64,000 nucleotides of DNA, from positions 62,001-126,000 of the forward strand of contig NZ_JAJTHI010000007.1 of NCBI RefSeq assembly GCF_021298855.1. The letters are read 5' to 3'. The position numbers were made by a program, and so were the translations under genes. The notes under the pieces are model-generated. The model saw nothing but the letters and a program-made list of their open reading frames with translations. It did no database searches and had not been told where the DNA came from. This document shows positions 12,127-21,427 of this stretch, in pieces. Within the stretch, counting starts at the first letter, position 1; each line of letters starts with the position of its first letter. The DNA is from Gemmatimonas sp. Its GTDB lineage: Bacteria; Gemmatimonadota; Gemmatimonadetes; Gemmatimonadales; Gemmatimonadaceae.

Positions 12127-13389
12127 CTATCCCCGTTCCATTCGGCTGTTCCGCCGCCCCAGCCACAGCGCCACCCCCAGCCAGAGGAAGCTCATGGGCG
12201 CCGCCATCAGCGAAATCGTCCCCGCTGCCAATCCGGCTGTCGACAGCCCCGCGTACGACCACGCCCCGATCTGATCGCCGCCGCGGTACACGAACGTATC
12301 GATGAAATTCTTGGCCTTGTACCGGTCCTCGGGAGGCACCACGGTGAACAGCACCTCGCGCGCCGGTCGCCCGAAGGCGTACTCCCCGGCCCGCCGCAAC
12401 ACCTGGAAGAGCACGAACACCGTGAGGGTACCCCAGGTCCCCAGCGCGACGAAGCCCACCAGGCTCAGCACCGGCATGATCGCGAGGGTGGCGCCAACCC
12501 CCAGCCACTTGATGACCCGGCCGGTCACGAACAGCTGCGCCAGTATGGTGAGGCTCTGCACCACCGTGTCGATGGTGGCGAGAAAGGCCGTGCGGGCCTC
12601 GCGATCGGCGTAGCGCGCCCCCACGATCTCCGCCTGCTGGAAGTACAGCACCGTGGACCCGATCGTGAAGAGCAGCATGTAGGCGCAGATGCCCAGCAGA
12701 TAGGGACTCGTGAGCACGTGGGTAATTCCCGCCAGCGACGAGCCGCCCACCGATTCGTCGGCCGCGTCACGCGCCCGCGTATCGTCGCGGAAGCTCGGCG
12801 GGAATCGCCTGGCGGCCTGCACGGCACACTCGAGCAGTACCACACTCATTACCATGAGCACCGGCGTGCCCACCGCCTGCGCCAGTCGCGATGTGAGGAA
12901 TGCCCCGGCAAGCGCGCCCAGGGTGCCGCCCACACTGATGAAGCCGAACAGCCGCTTCCCCTGCTCAGGGCGGAAGCTGTCCGCCATGAACCCCCAGAAC
13001 ACCGAGGGGATGAACAGCGAGTAGATGCTGGTGAGGATCCAGAACGCCGGACCGAGGTACGGCTCCCACGTCACCGGTCCGTACTTGATGATGGCCGCGA
13101 AACCCAGCAGCAGCGCAATGAAGATGCGGTAGACGATGGGGATGAAGCGCCGCACCGGCAGCCGCGCCACGATGGCCGAATACACCGGATTCATGGCCAG
13201 CGTGGTGAGCAGCGTGCCGGTGAACAACCACGGCAACTTGTCGGTGCCCGCTGCCACGCCCGCCGCGTCGCGCACCGCCCGCAGGATGAAGTAGCTGGCG
13301 AGCGCGAAGAAGAAGTACGTGGCGGCGAGCAGGGTGGCCCGCTCTTCGCCCGGCTCGACCGTGCCGAGCCGAGAGAGAAAGCGCTTCAC
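12127..13389 (-). CDS. ATP/ADP-translocase-like (COG3202) MFS carrier
   Basis: The 420-residue integral membrane protein has about 12 hydrophobic segments. Its sequence follows the pattern of the bacterial ATP/ADP translocase-like group: ATYFFFALASYFILRAVRD near the start, LPWLFTGTLL, then FWGFMADSFRPEQGKRLFGF and GGTLGALAGAFLT. Characterised members of the wider family exchange nucleotides (ATP/ADP, NTPs, NAD) across membranes, but free-living bacterial homologues like this one have no established substrate. The GTG start at 13389 directly abuts the stop of the SDR gene, so the two are co-translated. It is the last gene of a four-gene operon. An alternative label is simply MFS transporter. 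Confidence 0.75.
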   Translation of the reverse strand: MKRFLSRLGTVEPGEERATLLAATYFFFALASYFILRAVRDAAGVAAGTDKLPWLFTGTLLTTLAMNPVYSAIVARLPVRRFIPIVYRIFIALLLGFAAIIKYGPVTWEPYLGPAFWILTSIYSLFIPSVFWGFMADSFRPEQGKRLFGFISVGGTLGALAGAFLTSRLAQAVGTPVLMVMSVVLLECAVQAARRFPPSFRDDTRARDAADESVGGSSLAGITHVLTSPYLLGICAYMLLFTIGSTVLYFQQAEIVGARYADREARTAFLATIDTVVQSLTILAQLFVTGRVIKWLGVGATLAIMPVLSLVGFVALGTWGTLTVFVLFQVLRRAGEYAFGRPAREVLFTVVPPEDRYKAKNFIDTFVYRGGDQIGAWSYAGLSTAGLAAGTISLMAAPMSFLWLGVALWLGRRNSRMERG

Positions 13390-14439
13390 TCAGCGACCAG
13401 CTCTGGCGCGCCACTCCGCCAGCACCTGTTGCTCCTTCTCCGGGGCAAGGCCGGCCTTGAGCTGCGCCTGTCGTTCGGGCGACTGCTGGTGGAAGTACGT
13501 CAGCGTGTCGCGCGCCGTCTGGGCGAGCGGCCGGAAGGTGAGCCCCGCCTGCACCGCCTTGCTGATGTTCATGCGCGCCCACCCGGCACTGTTGCCGCGG
13601 GGCGGCATCCACACCGGCAGATCGGCGTACGGGCGCAGCTTGCGCGCGAGCAGGAAGTCGGCGTCCACCCAGGTGAAGCGGGTGTCGCTGGTGGTCACCG
13701 CCTTGCAGCCGTACAGCATCTCGCTCATGGTGAGGCCGTACTGCGGGCCCACCACGTTGTAGGTCCCGGTGGCGTCGGCTTCGCACAGCCGCACGATGAA
13801 CTCGGTGAGGTCCCGCTGATCAATGAAGGCCACGGGATCGTCGGGGGTGCCCGGCGCCAGCATCTCGCCCCCCTGCTCCACGCGAATGGGCCAGTACGAG
13901 AAGCGATCCGTGAGATCGCCCGGGCCCACGATGAGCCCCGGGCGCACGATGAGCGTCTTGTTCTCGCCGAAGGTGGCCTTCGCGTCCATCTCGCCGCGCA
14001 CCTTCCGCTCGCCGTAGCTGGCATCCTTCTCGGTGGCGTCGGGGGCCGACGGCGCGTTGAGCTGATCGACATCGGCTTCACTGATGCCGATCTTCCCCCG
14101 GTTCTTGTAGGTGCTGAGGGTACTCACGAACACGTACTTGCCCACGTTCGGCGCCAGGACGGCGCCGGCCTCACGCACCCAGCGCGGCACCTGCACCGGG
14201 TTGTCGATCACCACATCCCACGTGCGACCGTCCAGTGCCTTGTAGCCGCCCGGCGCGTTGCGGTCACCAATGAGCTTTTCGACCTTGGGGAACAGCGTCG
14301 GGTTCGTGACGCCACGATTGAACAGCGTCACGGTGTGGCCGCGCGAGAGCGCGTACTCCACCTGGTGCGGGCCAATAAACCCCGTGCCACCGAGGATGAG
14401 AATGCGCAGCGGCTTGATGGGCGTGTTGTGGACAGCCAT
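13390..14439 (-). CDS. NAD-dependent epimerase/dehydratase-like SDR, cytoplasmic copy
   Basis: The 349-residue protein is an extended short-chain dehydrogenase. The Rossmann glycine motif GGTGFIG is at residues 17-23 and a Y-G-E-R-K catalytic pair (YxxxK) follows the ADVDQLNAPSAPDATEKD region. It ends with a helical tail (LAPEKEQQVLAEWRARAGR) also found in its upstream neighbour. No signal peptide is present. The ATG at 14439 is preceded by an AGGGAGA ribosome site inside the end of the upstream gene, two bases after its stop. The closely related adjacent gene carries a Tat signal, so this is a local duplication. Substrate, probably a nucleotide-sugar or similar, is unknown. Confidence 0.88.
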   Translation of the reverse strand: MAVHNTPIKPLRILILGGTGFIGPHQVEYALSRGHTVTLFNRGVTNPTLFPKVEKLIGDRNAPGGYKALDGRTWDVVIDNPVQVPRWVREAGAVLAPNVGKYVFVSTLSTYKNRGKIGISEADVDQLNAPSAPDATEKDASYGERKVRGEMDAKATFGENKTLIVRPGLIVGPGDLTDRFSYWPIRVEQGGEMLAPGTPDDPVAFIDQRDLTEFIVRLCEADATGTYNVVGPQYGLTMSEMLYGCKAVTTSDTRFTWVDADFLLARKLRPYADLPVWMPPRGNSAGWARMNISKAVQAGLTFRPLAQTARDTLTYFHQQSPERQAQLKAGLAPEKEQQVLAEWRARAGR

Positions 14440-14441
14440 GA

Positions 14442-15614
14442 TCAGTCTCCCTGCTTCGCGTGCCACGCGGCCAGTACCGCCTTCTCCTTCTCGGGCGCGA
14501 TGCCGGCGCGCGCCTTCTCCTGCTCTGCCGCCGGACGGGTCTTGTACCAATCGAGCGTGCTCTTGGCCGTATCCGCCAGCGGGCGGAAGGTGAGACCCGC
14601 GGCGTAGGCCTTCTGGCAATTCACCTGCATGAAGCCGAGGGTGGGGCCCATGGCGGGTTGCCACACCGGCATTTCGCTCCAGGCGCGCACCTTCTGCTCG
14701 GCGAGGAAGTCCGCCGGCACCCAGGTGAACCTGGCGTCACTCGTGGTGACGCTCTTGATGCCGAGCAGCATTTCCGCGATGGTCGTCGGTCCCTTGGGGC
14801 CCGTGGCGTTGAACGTGCCCAACGTGTGGTTCTCACCGGTCCGCACGATCCACTCGCTCAGGTCGTGCACGTCCACATACTGCACGGGATCGTTCGGCGT
14901 GCCGGGTGCGAGAATCTCACCGCCCTTGTCGATGCGCACCGGCCAGTAGCTGAAGCGGTCGCTCAAGTCGCCGGGGCCCACGATGAGCCCCGGGCGCACG
15001 ATCGTCAGCTTGTCCTCGCCGAACTGCGTCTTCGCCTCGATCTCGGCGCGCACCTTGTTGGGGCCGTACGCCGCGCCGTCGTTGCTGGCCCAGATGGCTT
15101 CCGCGCCCGGCGTGTGCAGCGGGCCGTTCTCGTCCATCCCCGGCTTCGAGTAGTCGCTGAACACCGAGATGGTGGACACGAAGATGTATTGGCCCACGCG
15201 CCCCTTGAGTGCCTGCCCCGCATCGCGCACCCACGCCGGGTTGCGCACGGGATTGTCGATCACGACGTCCCACGTGCCCTTCTTCAGGCCGTCGTGGCCG
15301 CCGGCCACGTTGCGATCGCCGATGATGCGCGGGACCTTGGGGAAGAGGCCCGCATTGGTCTTGCCGCGATTGAACAGCGTGAGCTTGTGCCGGCGCGCGA
15401 GCGCGTACTCCACCTGCTGCGGCCCAATGAAGCCGGTGCCACCCAGAATGAGGATGCGCAGCGGCTTGGGCTGCGCGGTGCCGGTTTCGGGGCGATAGCC
15501 CAGCGGGCGCACCCCGTCGGCGGTGAAGGCCTCGGCGACGGCGGGGAGGCCGAGCCCCACCGCGCCACCGAGCACGGCGGACGTCTTGAGAAACTGCCGA
15601 CGGTCGAGCGTCAT
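14442..15614 (-). CDS. Tat-exported NAD-dependent epimerase/dehydratase-like SDR
   Basis: The 390-residue product begins MTLDRRQFLKTS followed by a mild hydrophobic stretch and an Ala-rich cleavage region, a standard twin-arginine signal. The Rossmann motif GGTGFIG is at 58-64 and the YxxxK pair appears as Y-G-P-N-K. The body is similar throughout to the next gene downstream, including shared GLIVGPGDLxDRFSYWP and TTSDxRFTWV segments. Tat export implies that it folds, probably with NAD(P) bound, before leaving the cytoplasm. The start at 15614 has AAGGAG six bases upstream. It follows the dipeptidase gene by 10 bases. Function in the periplasm is unknown. Confidence 0.9.
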   Translation of the reverse strand: MTLDRRQFLKTSAVLGGAVGLGLPAVAEAFTADGVRPLGYRPETGTAQPKPLRILILGGTGFIGPQQVEYALARRHKLTLFNRGKTNAGLFPKVPRIIGDRNVAGGHDGLKKGTWDVVIDNPVRNPAWVRDAGQALKGRVGQYIFVSTISVFSDYSKPGMDENGPLHTPGAEAIWASNDGAAYGPNKVRAEIEAKTQFGEDKLTIVRPGLIVGPGDLSDRFSYWPVRIDKGGEILAPGTPNDPVQYVDVHDLSEWIVRTGENHTLGTFNATGPKGPTTIAEMLLGIKSVTTSDARFTWVPADFLAEQKVRAWSEMPVWQPAMGPTLGFMQVNCQKAYAAGLTFRPLADTAKSTLDWYKTRPAAEQEKARAGIAPEKEKAVLAAWHAKQGD

Positions 15615-15624
15615 GGGACTCCTT

Positions 15625-16995
15625 TCAGGGCGTGATCTTCCGGTCGAGTAGCTGGATGGTCTTCGTGGACGCCGGGCGCTCCTTGCGGAGGCGCGCGGAT
15701 ACCGCTTCCGCCCGGGAAAGGGCGCGCAACACATTCTCGCCGGCGAGGCCACGGAGTTCCGTGTCGGTCCAGCCGCGCTTCACGAGCTCGGCCAGCAGGT
15801 ACGGATACTTCGACACATCCTCGAGCCCCTGCACTGTTTCGGTGATGCCGTCGTAGTCGCCACCCATGCCCACGTGCGCGGCACCGGCGACCTGCTTGAT
15901 ACGATCGAGATGGTCGGCAACATCACTGATGGTGGCGATGGGCGTGGGGTTGGCCTGCCGCCATGCTGCTACGGCCTTGAACTGCGCATCGTTGTCACCC
16001 GGGTAGCGCTTGGCCACCGAATCGCGCAGGCGATTGAGCGCGGCATCATGGTCGGCCACCTTTTGCGACACGAAGCCGGGCACGAAGGTCACCATCACCA
16101 CGCCGCCGTTCTTCGGCAGCCGCGCGAGAATGCTGTCGGGCACGTTACGCGGCACGTTGGTGACGGCGCGCGCGCTGGAGTGCGAGAAGATGACCGGCGC
16201 TTCGGTGGTGTTGAGCGCATCGCTCATGACCCCCGGCGACACGTGCGAGAGGTCCACCAGCATGCCAAGGCGGTTCATCTCGCGCACCACTTCCTTGCCG
16301 AAGTTGGTGAGCCCCCCGTGCTTGGGCGGCCCCGCGGCGGCATCGGCCCAGTCGAGCGTCACGTTGTGCGTGAGCGTCATGTAGCGCACGCCCAGATCGT
16401 AGTACGCGCGCAGCGCGCCGAGCGAGTTCTCGATGGCGTGCCCCCCTTCCATGCCCAGGAGCGACCCGATCTTCCCCTGAGCGTAGGCCTTGCGCACGTC
16501 GGCCGCGGTGAGTGCAGGGGTGAACACATCGGGATAGCGCGCAATGACACGGCGGGCGATGTCGATCTGTTCGAGCTGCACGCGCGCGTAGCCGCTGTCG
16601 CGCATGTCGCCGGGGATGTACACCGACCAGAACTGCCCGCCCACCTGCCCCTGCCGCAGCCGGGCAATGTCGGTCATCCCCTTGGTCTTCCGACGCAGGT
16701 TGTACGCCTCCACGTCGAGGGGCTTTTCCTTCTCCTCACGCATGGCCCAGGGCAGATCGTTGTGCCCATCCACGAGCGGCGTGAGGCGCAGCAGCCGGCG
16801 CACGTACGCCAGACGCACGTCGAGCGTGGTGTTGCGGAGGTCCTGCGTGGCCTTGCTGGTCGCGGCGGTCTTCTTGGCGGGCTGCTGTGCGGCGGCGGGG
16901 GTGGGGAGGGCCGCGACACAACCCGCGAACAGCAGGGGAGCGATCTGCTTGCGGGAAAAAGCGCTCAGGGATGCAGTGCGTGATGTATCCCGCAA
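15625..16995 (-). CDS. Membrane dipeptidase (peptidase M19), exported
   Basis: The product, about 456 residues, belongs to the renal-dipeptidase-like M19 family of zinc dipeptidases. Visible motifs are DGHNDLPW (metal-binding H-x-D), GMEGGHAIENSLGALRAYYDLG, LTHN, DLSHVSPGVM, FSHSSARAV and GGDYDGI. An N-terminal signal peptide ends near PTPAAAQQ, so the enzyme acts outside the cytoplasm. The start is uncertain: I chose TTG 16995, which gives a clean signal. The in-frame ATG at 17061 would require translation through a 14-bp tandem repeat that looks non-coding. First gene of the operon with the two SDR genes and the carrier. Confidence 0.9.
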   Translation of the reverse strand: MRDTSRTASLSAFSRKQIAPLLFAGCVAALPTPAAAQQPAKKTAATSKATQDLRNTTLDVRLAYVRRLLRLTPLVDGHNDLPWAMREEKEKPLDVEAYNLRRKTKGMTDIARLRQGQVGGQFWSVYIPGDMRDSGYARVQLEQIDIARRVIARYPDVFTPALTAADVRKAYAQGKIGSLLGMEGGHAIENSLGALRAYYDLGVRYMTLTHNVTLDWADAAAGPPKHGGLTNFGKEVVREMNRLGMLVDLSHVSPGVMSDALNTTEAPVIFSHSSARAVTNVPRNVPDSILARLPKNGGVVMVTFVPGFVSQKVADHDAALNRLRDSVAKRYPGDNDAQFKAVAAWRQANPTPIATISDVADHLDRIKQVAGAAHVGMGGDYDGITETVQGLEDVSKYPYLLAELVKRGWTDTELRGLAGENVLRALSRAEAVSARLRKERPASTKTIQLLDRKITP

Positions 16996-17037
16996 CCCTG
17001 CTTCCTGCCCCCTGCTCCCTGCCCCCTGCTCCCTGCC
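16996..17037. repeat. Three 14-bp tandem repeats
   Basis: CCCTGCTCCCTGCC is repeated three times head to tail (16996-17009 with one mismatch, 17010-17023, 17024-17037). It lies between the dipeptidase start and the esterase gene. The low complexity argues that this stretch is intergenic rather than an N-terminal extension. Confidence 0.8.
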
Positions 17038-17054
17038 CCGTAAACCACCGTCGT

Positions 17055-17819
17055 TCAGCATCCCAGTCGCTCCAGATAATGCGGAAGCATCTTGCGCCAC
17101 CACGGCCAGTCGTGGTTCACGTCGTGCCCCCACAGGTCGAAGATGTGGCCAATCCCCTTGCGGTCGAGCAGATCATGGAAGTCGCGCGCGTAATCGGGAC
17201 GCTCATAGGCGCCCTGACCGCTCACGATGGCGATGCGCGAATGGTGCCGCAGCTGGTCGAGCGCCCACCCTTCCACATTCGCCACGTACCACATGGGATT
17301 GTTGAAGTAGCAGTTGTCGTCGGAGTAGCCGTGGAAGTAGCTGGGCGACAGATCGAAGAACCCGCTCATGCCGATGGTGCCGCCGAACAGGTCGGGACGA
17401 CGGAAGAACGCATTGGCGGCGTGGAAGCAGCCGAAGCTGGCCCCGGTGGTGAGCGCGCGGGCGCTGCCGTCGCCGCAGAGGTGGCGGATGAACGGCGCCA
17501 CTTCCTCTTCCACGTAGTGCGAATAGAGCGCCTGGCGCCGTGCGCTTTCCGGCACGGGCAGTCCGCGATCCATCCAGGCGAGGCGGTTGATGCTGTCGAT
17601 CGAGAACACGCGGATCCGCCCCTGCTGCAGCAGCGGCTCGACGGCCTTGATGAGCCAGAAGCGTTCGTTCTCGAGGAAGTCGGCAGCCGCCGTGGGGAAG
17701 AGCAACACCGGCTGGCCGCGCCAACCGTAGCTCACGATGGGCATCTCGAGACCGAGTGCCGGGCTGCGCCACCGGTCGATGCGCCGGGGCAGATGCGGAT
17801 CCACGAACTGAGGGGACAT
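17055..17819 (-). CDS. Putative esterase, alpha/beta-hydrolase fold (COG4947-like)
   Basis: A 254-residue protein without signal peptide. It has a nucleophile elbow GASFGCFHA (Ser) in the middle and a late histidine in LWGHDVNHDWPWW, with Asp candidates between, consistent with a Ser-Asp-His hydrolase of the small putative-esterase group. The N-terminal part reads PALGLEMPIVSYGWRGQPVLLFPTAA, the usual first strands of the fold. Substrate is unknown. It is on the same strand as the GNAT gene upstream, 57 bases away. Confidence 0.82.
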   Translation of the reverse strand: MSPQFVDPHLPRRIDRWRSPALGLEMPIVSYGWRGQPVLLFPTAAADFLENERFWLIKAVEPLLQQGRIRVFSIDSINRLAWMDRGLPVPESARRQALYSHYVEEEVAPFIRHLCGDGSARALTTGASFGCFHAANAFFRRPDLFGGTIGMSGFFDLSPSYFHGYSDDNCYFNNPMWYVANVEGWALDQLRHHSRIAIVSGQGAYERPDYARDFHDLLDRKGIGHIFDLWGHDVNHDWPWWRKMLPHYLERLGC

Positions 17820-18421: not shown

Positions 18422-18922
18422 TCACCGCGACGCGTAGACGCGCGTCTTGCCGGCCTTGTCGAACAGGAGCACGTCATAGCGATCCTTGCGCGCCCCCTGT
18501 TCCATGCCGGGGGACCCCACCGGCATGCCCGGCACGGCCAGCCCACGGCCGACGGGCTTCTCGGCCACCAGCTTCACGATCAGATCGGCCGGCACGTGCC
18601 CTTCAATGGTATAGGAGCCGATGCGCGCGGTGTGGCAGGACCCCAGGGCGTCGGGGACTCCCAGCGACGCCTTCACGGTGGCCATGTCGGCGGTATCGCG
18701 CACCGTGACGGTGAAGCCGGCCTTGCGCACGTGCGCCACCCACTCCTCGCAGCAGCCGCAGTTGGGGTCCTTGTACACGACCATCGTGCGCTCCGGTGGC
18801 TGCGCCATGGCAAGCGCGGGGCGGGCAATGATCAGGCCGCCAACGGCACAGGCGGCAGCGCGAAAGAAGTCGCGGCGGGAGTGCGGCACCGCCGCTCCGG
18901 ACGGCGAGAGAGGAGTGAGCAT
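18422..18922 (-). CDS. DUF411 metal-binding protein, Tat-exported
   Basis: The 166-residue product starts with a twin-arginine signal (SRRDFFRAAACAVGG, arginines 16-17). The mature part is a DUF411 domain: DPNCGCCEEWVAHVRKAGF, later LGSCHTARIGSYTIEGHVPADLI. This small family often accompanies copper genes and is presumed to bind metal through its cysteines and His. It is transcribed away from the cbb3 oxidase operon across a 240-base gap. That gap holds a TAGACT -10-like hexamer at 19114 and no convincing FNR box. Its neighbourhood suggests a role in periplasmic copper handling for the oxidase, which is inference. Confidence 0.87.
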   Translation of the reverse strand: MLTPLSPSGAAVPHSRRDFFRAAACAVGGLIIARPALAMAQPPERTMVVYKDPNCGCCEEWVAHVRKAGFTVTVRDTADMATVKASLGVPDALGSCHTARIGSYTIEGHVPADLIVKLVAEKPVGRGLAVPGMPVGSPGMEQGARKDRYDVLLFDKAGKTRVYASR

Positions 18923-19162
18923 ACCGCACAGTATAGCGTCCGGCCCAAGCCCAGTTCCCGTTTGCGCCTCGCCGCGTGCCGCGCCTGCCCGACCCGCCAG
19001 CACCTCACGCCGGGGATGGCCTTGTACTGATTGGTCCAAGTCCGACCTCCCTATCGGGTTTTCCCCGACGCATTCCCATCACCCTCCTGACGGAGTGGCG
19101 CATGGTGAAGACCTAGACTCTCCCTCGCACTACCCAAATCCCACACTCCCAGAGGGAATTCG

Positions 19163-21427
19163 ATGACCCCCGCAACCAGCGTGGCCGCCGCCGGCGCCGC
19201 CCCACGCGTCTCCGGCGTCGCGCTCGACCGCTTCTCATATGATGACGCGATCGTCCGGAAATTCCTGTTTGCCACGCTCATTTGGGGCGTGGTCGGCATG
19301 GTGGCTGGCCTGCTGATCGCGCTGCAGCTGGCCAATCCGATTTTCAATCTCGGTCTCGAATGGACGTCGTTCGGGCGCCTGCGGCCGCTGCACACCAACG
19401 CGGTGATCTTCGCCTTTGCCGGGAACGCGTTCTTCATGGGGTGCTACTACAGCACCCAGCGTCTGCTCAAGGCGCGCATGTTCTCCGATGGTCTGAGCAA
19501 CTTCCACTTCTGGGGGTGGCAGGCGATCATCGTCTCCGCCGCCCTCACGCTGCCCTTCGGCTTCACGCAGGCCAAGGAGTACGCGGAGCTCGAGTGGCCC
19601 ATCGACATCGCGATTGCGGTGGTGTGGGTGGCCTTTGCGGTGAATTTTTTCGGCACGCTGGTCAAGCGCCGTGAGCGCCACCTCTACGTGGCGCTCTGGT
19701 TCTACATCGCGTCCATCGTCACGGTCGCCATTCTGCACATCTTCAACAACCTGTCCGTCCCGGCCGGGTTCCTGAAGAGCTACAGCATCTATGCCGGCGT
19801 GCAGGACGCCTTCATGCAGTGGTGGTACGGCCACAACGCCGTCGCGTTCTTCCTCACGACGCCGTTCCTCGGGCTCATGTACTACTTCATGCCCAAGGCC
19901 GCAGAAGGGCCGGTGTTCAGCTACAAGCTGTCCATCCTGCACTTCTGGTCGCTGGTGTTCATGTACATCTGGGCCGGCCCGCACCACCTGCACTACACGG
20001 CGCTTCCCGAGTGGGCGAGCACGGTGGGCATGCTCTTCTCGGTGATGCTCTGGGCGCCCAGCTGGGGCGGCATGATCAATGGCCTCCTCACGCTGCGCGG
20101 CGCGTGGCACAAGGTGGCGCAGGACCCCATCCTCAAGTTCTTCGTGGTGGGTGTGACCGCCTACGGCATGTCCACCTTCGAGGGGCCGATGCTCTCCATC
20201 AAGAGCGTCAACGCCCTCGCGCACTACACCGACTGGATCATCGCGCACGTGCACACGGGTGCGCTGGGCTGGAACGGCTTCATGACCTTCGGCATCGTGT
20301 ACTGGCTGCTGCCGCGCGTCTTCCAGACGCCGGTCTTCAGCAAGAAGGCCATGGAGCTGCACTTCTGGATCGCGTCGGTGGGAATCGTGCTGTACGTGGT
20401 GGCGATCTACAGCGCCGGCGTCACGCAGGGGCTCATGTGGCGCGCGTTCGACGAAACGGGACGCCTGGCGTACCCCGACTTCGTCGAGACCGTGCTCAAG
20501 CTGATGCCCATGTACTGGATGCGTGTGGCGGGCGGCACGTTGTACATCGTCGGCATGGTGATCTTCGGCTGGAACATCTTCAAGACGTGGGCGAACCGTC
20601 CGGCCACGTACGAGGTGCCGGTCATCGAAGCGGCGCCCCTGGCGAAGCGATATGTGGAGGATCACCCGGTGGTACCCGCGAACGGCCTGTGGGCGCGCTT
20701 CAACCAGGTGCAGTGGCACCGCGCGTGGGAACGCGCACCGATGCTCTTCACCGTGCTCACCACGCTGGCCGTCATCGTGGCCTCCCTCTTCGAGATCCTC
20801 CCCACGTTCCTCATCAAGTCGAACGTGCCCACGATCGCGAGCGTCAAGCCGTACACGCCGCTCGAACTCGCCGGCCGGGATCTCTACATCGCCGAGGGAT
20901 GCTTCAACTGCCACTCGCAGATGGTGCGGCCGTTCCGCTACGAGACGGAGCGCTTCGGCGACTACAGCAAGCCGGGCGAGTCGGTCTACGAGCACCCGTT
21001 CCTCTGGGGTTCGCGCCGCATCGGTCCCGACCTGGCGCGTCAGGGCGGCAAGTACCCCGACCTGTGGCATGTGCGGCACTTCGAGAATCCGCGGGCCGTC
21101 ACGGCCAAGTCGATCATGCCGGCGTACGCCCACTTCCTCAGCAAGTCGCTCGACTTCGACGGCATCCAGAGCCGCGTGGACGCGATGGCCATGGTGGGCG
21201 TGCCGTACGGTGATGCCGTGAACAAGGCCCCCGGCATGGCGCGCGAGCAGGCGAAGCAGATCGCCGCCGCCATCCGGGAGCAGGGCGGGCCCGAGGGGCT
21301 CGAGGACAAGCAGATCGTGGCCATGGTGGCCTACATGCAGCGGCTCGGCCGTGACATCAAGGTGACCGCCACGGCGAGCGCCGCGCCCACCCAGGCACCC
21401 GCGCGCGTGAACGGAGGGACCAACTGA
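19163..21427 (+). CDS. ccoNO: Cytochrome cbb3 oxidase, fused subunits I and II (CcoN-CcoO)
   Basis: The 754-residue protein joins the two core subunits of the cbb3 terminal oxidase. The first 500 or so residues are the 12-helix CcoN subunit with its haem and CuB histidines (LRPLHTNAVIFAFAGNAFF, YGHNAVAFFL, HHLHYTALPEW, HVHTGALGWNG). After a linker comes the CcoO c-type cytochrome with one haem site C580-F-N-C-H584 and a candidate axial Met in KSIMPAYAHFL. It reduces oxygen to water at low oxygen tension and pumps protons. An AGAGGGA ribosome site precedes the ATG. The stop overlaps the ccoQ start. Usually N and O are separate genes; fusions are known in some lineages. Confidence 0.96.
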   Translation: MTPATSVAAAGAAPRVSGVALDRFSYDDAIVRKFLFATLIWGVVGMVAGLLIALQLANPIFNLGLEWTSFGRLRPLHTNAVIFAFAGNAFFMGCYYSTQRLLKARMFSDGLSNFHFWGWQAIIVSAALTLPFGFTQAKEYAELEWPIDIAIAVVWVAFAVNFFGTLVKRRERHLYVALWFYIASIVTVAILHIFNNLSVPAGFLKSYSIYAGVQDAFMQWWYGHNAVAFFLTTPFLGLMYYFMPKAAEGPVFSYKLSILHFWSLVFMYIWAGPHHLHYTALPEWASTVGMLFSVMLWAPSWGGMINGLLTLRGAWHKVAQDPILKFFVVGVTAYGMSTFEGPMLSIKSVNALAHYTDWIIAHVHTGALGWNGFMTFGIVYWLLPRVFQTPVFSKKAMELHFWIASVGIVLYVVAIYSAGVTQGLMWRAFDETGRLAYPDFVETVLKLMPMYWMRVAGGTLYIVGMVIFGWNIFKTWANRPATYEVPVIEAAPLAKRYVEDHPVVPANGLWARFNQVQWHRAWERAPMLFTVLTTLAVIVASLFEILPTFLIKSNVPTIASVKPYTPLELAGRDLYIAEGCFNCHSQMVRPFRYETERFGDYSKPGESVYEHPFLWGSRRIGPDLARQGGKYPDLWHVRHFENPRAVTAKSIMPAYAHFLSKSLDFDGIQSRVDAMAMVGVPYGDAVNKAPGMAREQAKQIAAAIREQGGPEGLEDKQIVAMVAYMQRLGRDIKVTATASAAPTQAPARVNGGTN

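Follow-up and report, generated by a model that had tools for sequence, protein, structure and literature searches.

The window analysed here is a 64,000-nucleotide stretch of a Gemmatimonas sp. genome (contig NZ_JAJTHI010000007.1), which contains a compact cluster of four genes on the minus strand. In gene order, these encode an M19 dipeptidase, a short-chain dehydrogenase/reductase (SDR) with a predicted twin-arginine translocation (Tat) signal (P0001), a second SDR without a signal (P0002) and a carrier related to the NTT-type nucleotide translocators (P0003), with gaps of 10, 2 and 0 nt between them. The features are given below by window coordinates.

14442..15614, minus strand: P0001, Tat-tagged extended SDR, 390 amino acids; AAGGAG precedes the ATG, and the protein begins MTLDRRQFLKTSAVLGGAVGLGLPAVAEAF
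15528..15614, minus strand: predicted Tat signal of P0001, residues 1-29, with RR at residues 5-6, a hydrophobic stretch and, by eye, an AVAEA cleavage-like site
13390..14439, minus strand: P0002, SDR paralogue without a signal, 349 amino acids; its ATG lies 2 nt past the P0001 stop, and the protein begins MAVHNTPIKPLRILILGGTGFIG
12127..13389, minus strand: P0003, NTT-related carrier with a predicted major facilitator superfamily fold, 420 amino acids; its GTG start follows directly on the P0002 stop
15625..17133, minus strand: membrane dipeptidase of peptidase family M19, separated by 10 nt from the SDR pair downstream

An original prediction from the sequence of this window had described positions 13390-15614 as tandem SDRs with shared motifs, and both the coordinates and the motifs were confirmed. 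P0001 and P0002 are 56% identical across 340 residues without a gap, and both contain GGTGFIG, the serine, YxxxK (YGPNK or YGERK) and the segment GLIVGPGDLxDRFSYWP. Both match PF01370 (Epimerase; 30.2 bits for P0001 and 45.2 bits for P0002, cut-off 20.9), as extended or atypical SDRs do. In P0001, GGTGFIG occupies residues 58-64 and the catalytic set is Ser147, Tyr183 and Lys187; among 69 SDR relatives, the serine and the lysine do not vary and the tyrosine is present in at least 90%. The motif glycines and Arg83, which lies behind strand 2 in an Asn-Arg pair, are likewise invariant in these relatives. SDR39U1, which has an Arg at the position matching Arg83, was solved with NADPH; the Arg suggests NADP over NAD as the cofactor of P0001.

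The predicted model of P0001 is of high confidence from residue 50, while the predicted local distance difference test (pLDDT) score is below 50 for residues 1-39. The closest structural matches are UDP-hexose epimerases together with further extended SDRs, tied at Z 24-26. Because many chains tie near Z 25, the fold assigns no function past "extended SDR". P0001 shares the fold, the glycine motif and Ser-Tyr-Lys with extended SDRs of the UDP-hexose 4-epimerase type, but differs from them in the Asn-Arg after strand 2 and the Tat signal and is 13-20% identical to them.

The two curated Tat models, TIGR01409 and PF10518, match P0001 at 28.5 bits (cut-off 16.7) and 26.6 bits (cut-off 22.7), respectively, and neither matches P0002, which agrees with the earlier claim that only the upstream SDR carries an RR signal. 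Among the 29 same-genus genomes with a match to P0001, the best match starts at query residue 1 or 2 and includes the signal in 28, the remaining genome giving a partial match only; the signal is thus not due to chance. Absence of the RR motif from orthologues had been named beforehand as grounds for rejecting the claim, and the motif is retained. The host genome (4.09 Mb, 99.5% complete), which among named genomes is closest to Gemmatimonas and to Gemmatimonadaceae metagenome-assembled genomes, encodes TatC (215.6 bits) and TatA/B (64.6 bits), and P0001 and P0002 are its only SDR copies of this type. The same chemistry had also been proposed for both sides of the inner membrane, and this is supported in so far as a common fold and common active-site residues are predicted on each side.

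To follow the history of the signal, we gathered 174 distinct SDR homologues from genomes of the family and, beyond its phylum, from named contigs. By our own rule, 129 were Tat-tagged, 40 lacked a signal and 5 held an RR relic, before three labels were corrected: L170_0m and L146_2p, whose N-termini are cut by the contig, were dropped from the trees and adjacency counts, and L104 was re-set to Tat by hand. TIGR01409, which is independent of this rule, matched 66 of 94 tagged and 0 of 42 untagged SDRs. In a tree of 127 rows, kept from 172 after redundancy thinning, untagged copies occur at three places, with six state changes, of which at least three are forced by well-supported branches. The P0002 type (9 rows) has as its sister a Tat-bearing protein from an Acidobacteria-labelled metagenome-assembled genome, which is 71% identical to P0002; a second untagged Gemmatimonas type (11 rows) also has a Tat-bearing sister; and at the third place, copies from two other genera are intermixed with tagged ones. 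A single clade of all untagged copies was rejected by the approximately unbiased test (p 0.0039), which rules out one origin for them all; the test used a thinned set of 61 rows, from which 15 distant Tat rows had been removed beforehand, and the clade was defined after the 127-row tree had been seen.

In one genus, the untagged copies keep the starting RR motif (e.g. MLNRREFLTG at L120) and the hydrophobic stretch is gone. Tagged outgroups, scattered untagged copies and these relics together indicate that the SDR family is ancestrally Tat-tagged and that the untagged copies arose by signal loss, more than once, each a predicted return to the cytosol. The window pair split before the genus. 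The original prediction had explained the pair by local duplication. In the tree, however, P0002 falls among further untagged copies, together with an outgroup that bears Tat and apart from P0001, and a recent duplication within the window is ruled out. Gain of the signal by P0001 is not favoured either, given Tat in nearly all outgroups and the RR relics in untagged copies of another genus. Each of the 42 untagged copies adjoins a tagged one, which it follows in 35 cases and precedes in 7.

Several individual clusters show other arrangements of these SDRs. Vestigial signals, with RR kept and the hydrophobic stretch lost, were seen in one untagged SDR each at L118, L119, L120, L121 and L124, and both tandem SDRs retain complete signals at L123. 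At L038, L044, L045, L050 and L055, Gemmatimonas clusters contain a single tagged SDR besides two untagged ones of differing types, three in all. Many of the records are metagenome-assembled genomes, and some of their labels are doubtful: L038 is labelled Kuenenia but holds a Gemmatimonas-type cluster, and at L061, L066, L069, L070 and others, labels such as Gammaproteobacteria clash with Gemmatimonadota-type clusters, probably through mislabelled bins.

P0003 matches PF03219 at 22.9 bits (cut-off 21), and the same model matches 30 of 36 relatives of the carrier at E up to 0.01. When a profile of the 36 relatives was compared with the PDB, the sole match at E up to 1 was ADP,ATP carrier protein 1 of Chlamydia pneumoniae (NTT1, 9.8e-16). 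The predicted structure (pLDDT 87) is nearest to AtNTT1 (9j3m; Z 41.3, root-mean-square deviation 2.1 over 403 residues), with LacY next at Z 29.6. The NTT ATP/ADP translocators are thus the best match to P0003 among PDB chains in both profile and predicted fold, at 15-18% identity, and on this basis we assign P0003 as a relative of NTT-type carriers. The invariant Arg40 and Asp137 are candidate counterparts of K155 and E245, two of the four charged residues tied to ATP/ADP exchange.

We next asked how regularly the carrier accompanies the SDR. Among 179 genomes of the family, 75 contain a strong SDR match together with the carrier, 9 the SDR only, 2 the carrier only and 93 neither (Fisher p 2e-37, kinship ignored). 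At least 62 of 96 carrier places in the family lie directly downstream of a listed SDR; 20 of the other 34 were fetched, and 11 of these have a same-strand partner within 400 nt, which in 9 cases is an aldo/keto reductase (AKR). The carrier profile matches 226 of 395 Gemmatimonadota genomes. From this list, 40 loci outside the family were picked before their neighbours were seen; a same-strand partner lies within 400 nt at 21 of them (11 SDR, 7 AKR, 3 both), and when both strands are counted out to 1800 nt, the number of loci with a partner is 23. The carrier is present in 47 of 297 genomes of the phylum to which the Acidobacteria-labelled genome (G436) belongs. Of 20 Acidobacteriota carrier loci, mostly the top-scoring ones, 8 have a same-strand partner (7 SDR, 1 AKR) and 5 a divergent SDR, 13 in total. 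Six further loci, from genomes behind earlier matches (L291-L296), gave one same-strand SDR and one same-strand AKR, and a Verrucomicrobiota-labelled contig (L056) carries an SDR followed by the carrier. The gene caller used for the neighbour lists is rough (it relies on GC at third codon positions) and may miss genes; the same-strand counts within 400 nt use profile domain positions.

The partner AKRs all match PF00248 (21 of 21), and Asp, Tyr, Lys and His, which we take to be the AKR active-site residues, are invariant in them. The two Tat models match 5 and 4 of these 21 proteins. Among the 57 SDR or AKR partner genes at L176-L195, L225-L264 and L291-L316, 54 were assessable and all 54 have a twin-arginine N-terminus. 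A stricter Tat rule, written after the partners had been seen, is passed by 51 of the 54 compared with 28 of 287 other genes at the same loci, which were scanned over a longer stretch; a looser flag matched even the carriers and was not used. On the carrier tree, partners of one type group together (27 changes, where shuffling gave 52 on average and 0 of 200 shuffles were as low), and the AKR partners form separate, well-supported groups.

Other neighbours were also noted. An M19 peptidase was also seen as the upstream neighbour at Gemmatimonas-type loci. At L242, L248, L252 and L256, a carrier gene adjoins a second member of its family on the opposite strand, with no SDR or AKR partner. Elsewhere in the window, the open reading frame list contains a small cysteine-bearing protein with a Tat-like N-terminus, SRRDFFRAAACAVGGLII (18422-19039, minus strand), and a 754-residue frame (19163-21427, plus strand) that by eye resembles a cbb3-type oxidase subunit I fused to a cytochrome-c-type subunit II.

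The common view is that redox enzymes in the periplasm operate independently of soluble NAD(P), and exceptions of the glucose-fructose oxidoreductase (GFOR) type hold a captive cofactor. We know of no carrier paired with GFOR. The original prediction had called an exported NAD(P) enzyme unusual, which is overstated: the title of Halbig et al. 1999, cited in PMC7317946, describes the GFOR of Zymomonas mobilis as NADP-containing and exported with its cofactor by the Tat pathway. P0001 resembles GFOR as a predicted NAD(P) enzyme with a twin-arginine signal, but it matches the Epimerase model and not the Gfo/Idh/MocA domain, for which neither P0001 nor P0002 gave a match at E up to 0.01. In the open-licence papers searched, we found nothing on Gemmatimonas twin-arginine oxidoreductases, no on-topic title for a periplasmic Tat-exported NADPH aldo-keto reductase or for a Tat-exported periplasmic epimerase with Rossmann NAD, and no title that describes such a periplasmic NAD/NADPH system or links a nucleotide transporter to the Tat pathway in one.

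Transport of NAD by NTT proteins has precedents. According to PMC3831814, NTT4 of Protochlamydia enables NAD(H) uptake by E. coli, and the title of Fisher 2013, cited in PMC5381601, links Chlamydia Npt1 to NAD. These proteins belong to the same superfamily as P0003 but are importers of intracellular bacteria, and a similar substrate for P0003 is putative. NTTs are widespread in free-living bacteria according to PMC5381601, which includes two Gemmatimonadetes sequences and leaves their role open. The earlier claim that the cofactor must be loaded before export therefore no longer describes the sole route, since an NTT-related carrier is encoded by the gene that follows the SDR pair and NTTs of other bacteria can move NAD(H).

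Taken together, we propose that P0001 is an active extended SDR that would fold and take up NADP(H) in the cytoplasm and then be exported to the periplasm by the Tat system, whereas P0002, an old paralogue of the exported family that lost its signal, would work in the cytosol. P0003 would act in the inner membrane together with the exported SDR. We infer that its cargo is a nucleotide, with NAD(P)(H) or a breakdown product of it the likeliest, and that transport across the membrane would allow the exported reductase to be supplied or re-supplied. The carrier is paired with two unrelated enzymes that share predicted Tat export and NAD(P) chemistry, as expected of a carrier for the cofactor. A unit made up of carrier and exported enzyme, with a nicotinamide dinucleotide as the most likely cargo, is a tentative proposal, which we consider quite possible but short of probable.

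Several observations weigh against this proposal. TIGR00769, the superfamily model, gives P0003 22.6 bits, far below its cut-off of 387.2. In the profile alignment, AtNTT1 E385 corresponds to Tyr249 and K527 (taken as the nearest lysine, the numbering being off by one) to Asp372, residues that all 36 carriers share; PMC3306366 and PMC10654386 assign roles in ATP/ADP exchange to the charged NTT residues. Because of these two replacements, ATP/ADP exchange of the plastid kind by P0003 is unlikely. P0003 also differs from the NTT ATP/ADP translocators in its pairing with exported oxidoreductases. Moreover, at 19 of the 40 carrier loci sampled beyond the family, no partner lies on the same strand within 400 nt, and a carrier is lacking next to many Tat-tagged SDRs of other phyla.

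The pairing can be read in other ways. The SDR may be exported, as GFOR is, with a cofactor that never dissociates, and may catalyse a redox-neutral reaction (an epimerisation or two half-reactions), in which case the carrier would move a substrate such as a nucleotide-sugar or another anion. UDP-hexose epimerases retain NAD throughout the catalytic cycle, and they are among the nearest folds to the SDR model (Z about 25); the precedent of Zymomonas and the loss of the two ATP/ADP-exchange residues from the carrier also fit this explanation. However, the epimerase match is unspecific among the tied extended SDRs, and the same carrier family also adjoins Tat-tagged AKRs; in known AKRs, bound NADPH is released again. 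We regard this explanation as possible, if somewhat doubtful. The main alternative for the common carrier is a carbonyl substrate shared by the SDR and the AKR.

It is unlikely that the carrier and the exported enzymes are mutually independent and co-located through one regulon or sugar pathway. Carrier loci do contain other Tat-like proteins, such as the xylose/hydroxypyruvate isomerase-like one (by eye) that lies directly upstream of the carrier at L243 in place of an SDR or AKR, and roughly every second carrier sampled beyond the family stands without a same-strand partner. Against this, the genes are directly adjacent, often with gaps below 100 nt, in both Gemmatimonadota and Acidobacteriota, and this holds for two partner families that are unrelated to each other. 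That the RR signals go unused and both SDRs remain cytosolic or at the membrane is very improbable: although some RR-bearing proteins escape the Tat models (which match 66 of 94 SDRs and only 4 of 21 AKRs), TatA and TatC are present in the genome, P0001 scores well above both Tat cut-offs, and the signals are conserved in distant phyla and lost in side copies only.

A wider form of the cofactor-transport proposal holds that Gemmatimonadota, Acidobacteriota and their relatives keep a usable periplasmic NAD(P)(H), that an NTT-related carrier moves nicotinamide dinucleotides to a Tat-exported SDR, AKR or both, and that some lineages returned a duplicate SDR to the cytosol; as a whole, we consider it rather unlikely. 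Side copies that repeatedly lost the signal, some with readable relics, provide a natural series for the return of an exported enzyme to the cytosol. A nucleotide-type carrier beside two unrelated Tat-tagged enzymes of NAD(P) type, as found in Gemmatimonadota and Acidobacteriota, offers a direct way to ask whether cofactor crosses the membrane, and since exported SDR and carrier are kept together in three phyla, the question of periplasmic NAD(P) enzymes becomes testable. If the proposal is true, the NTT relatives of free-living bacteria would gain a role.
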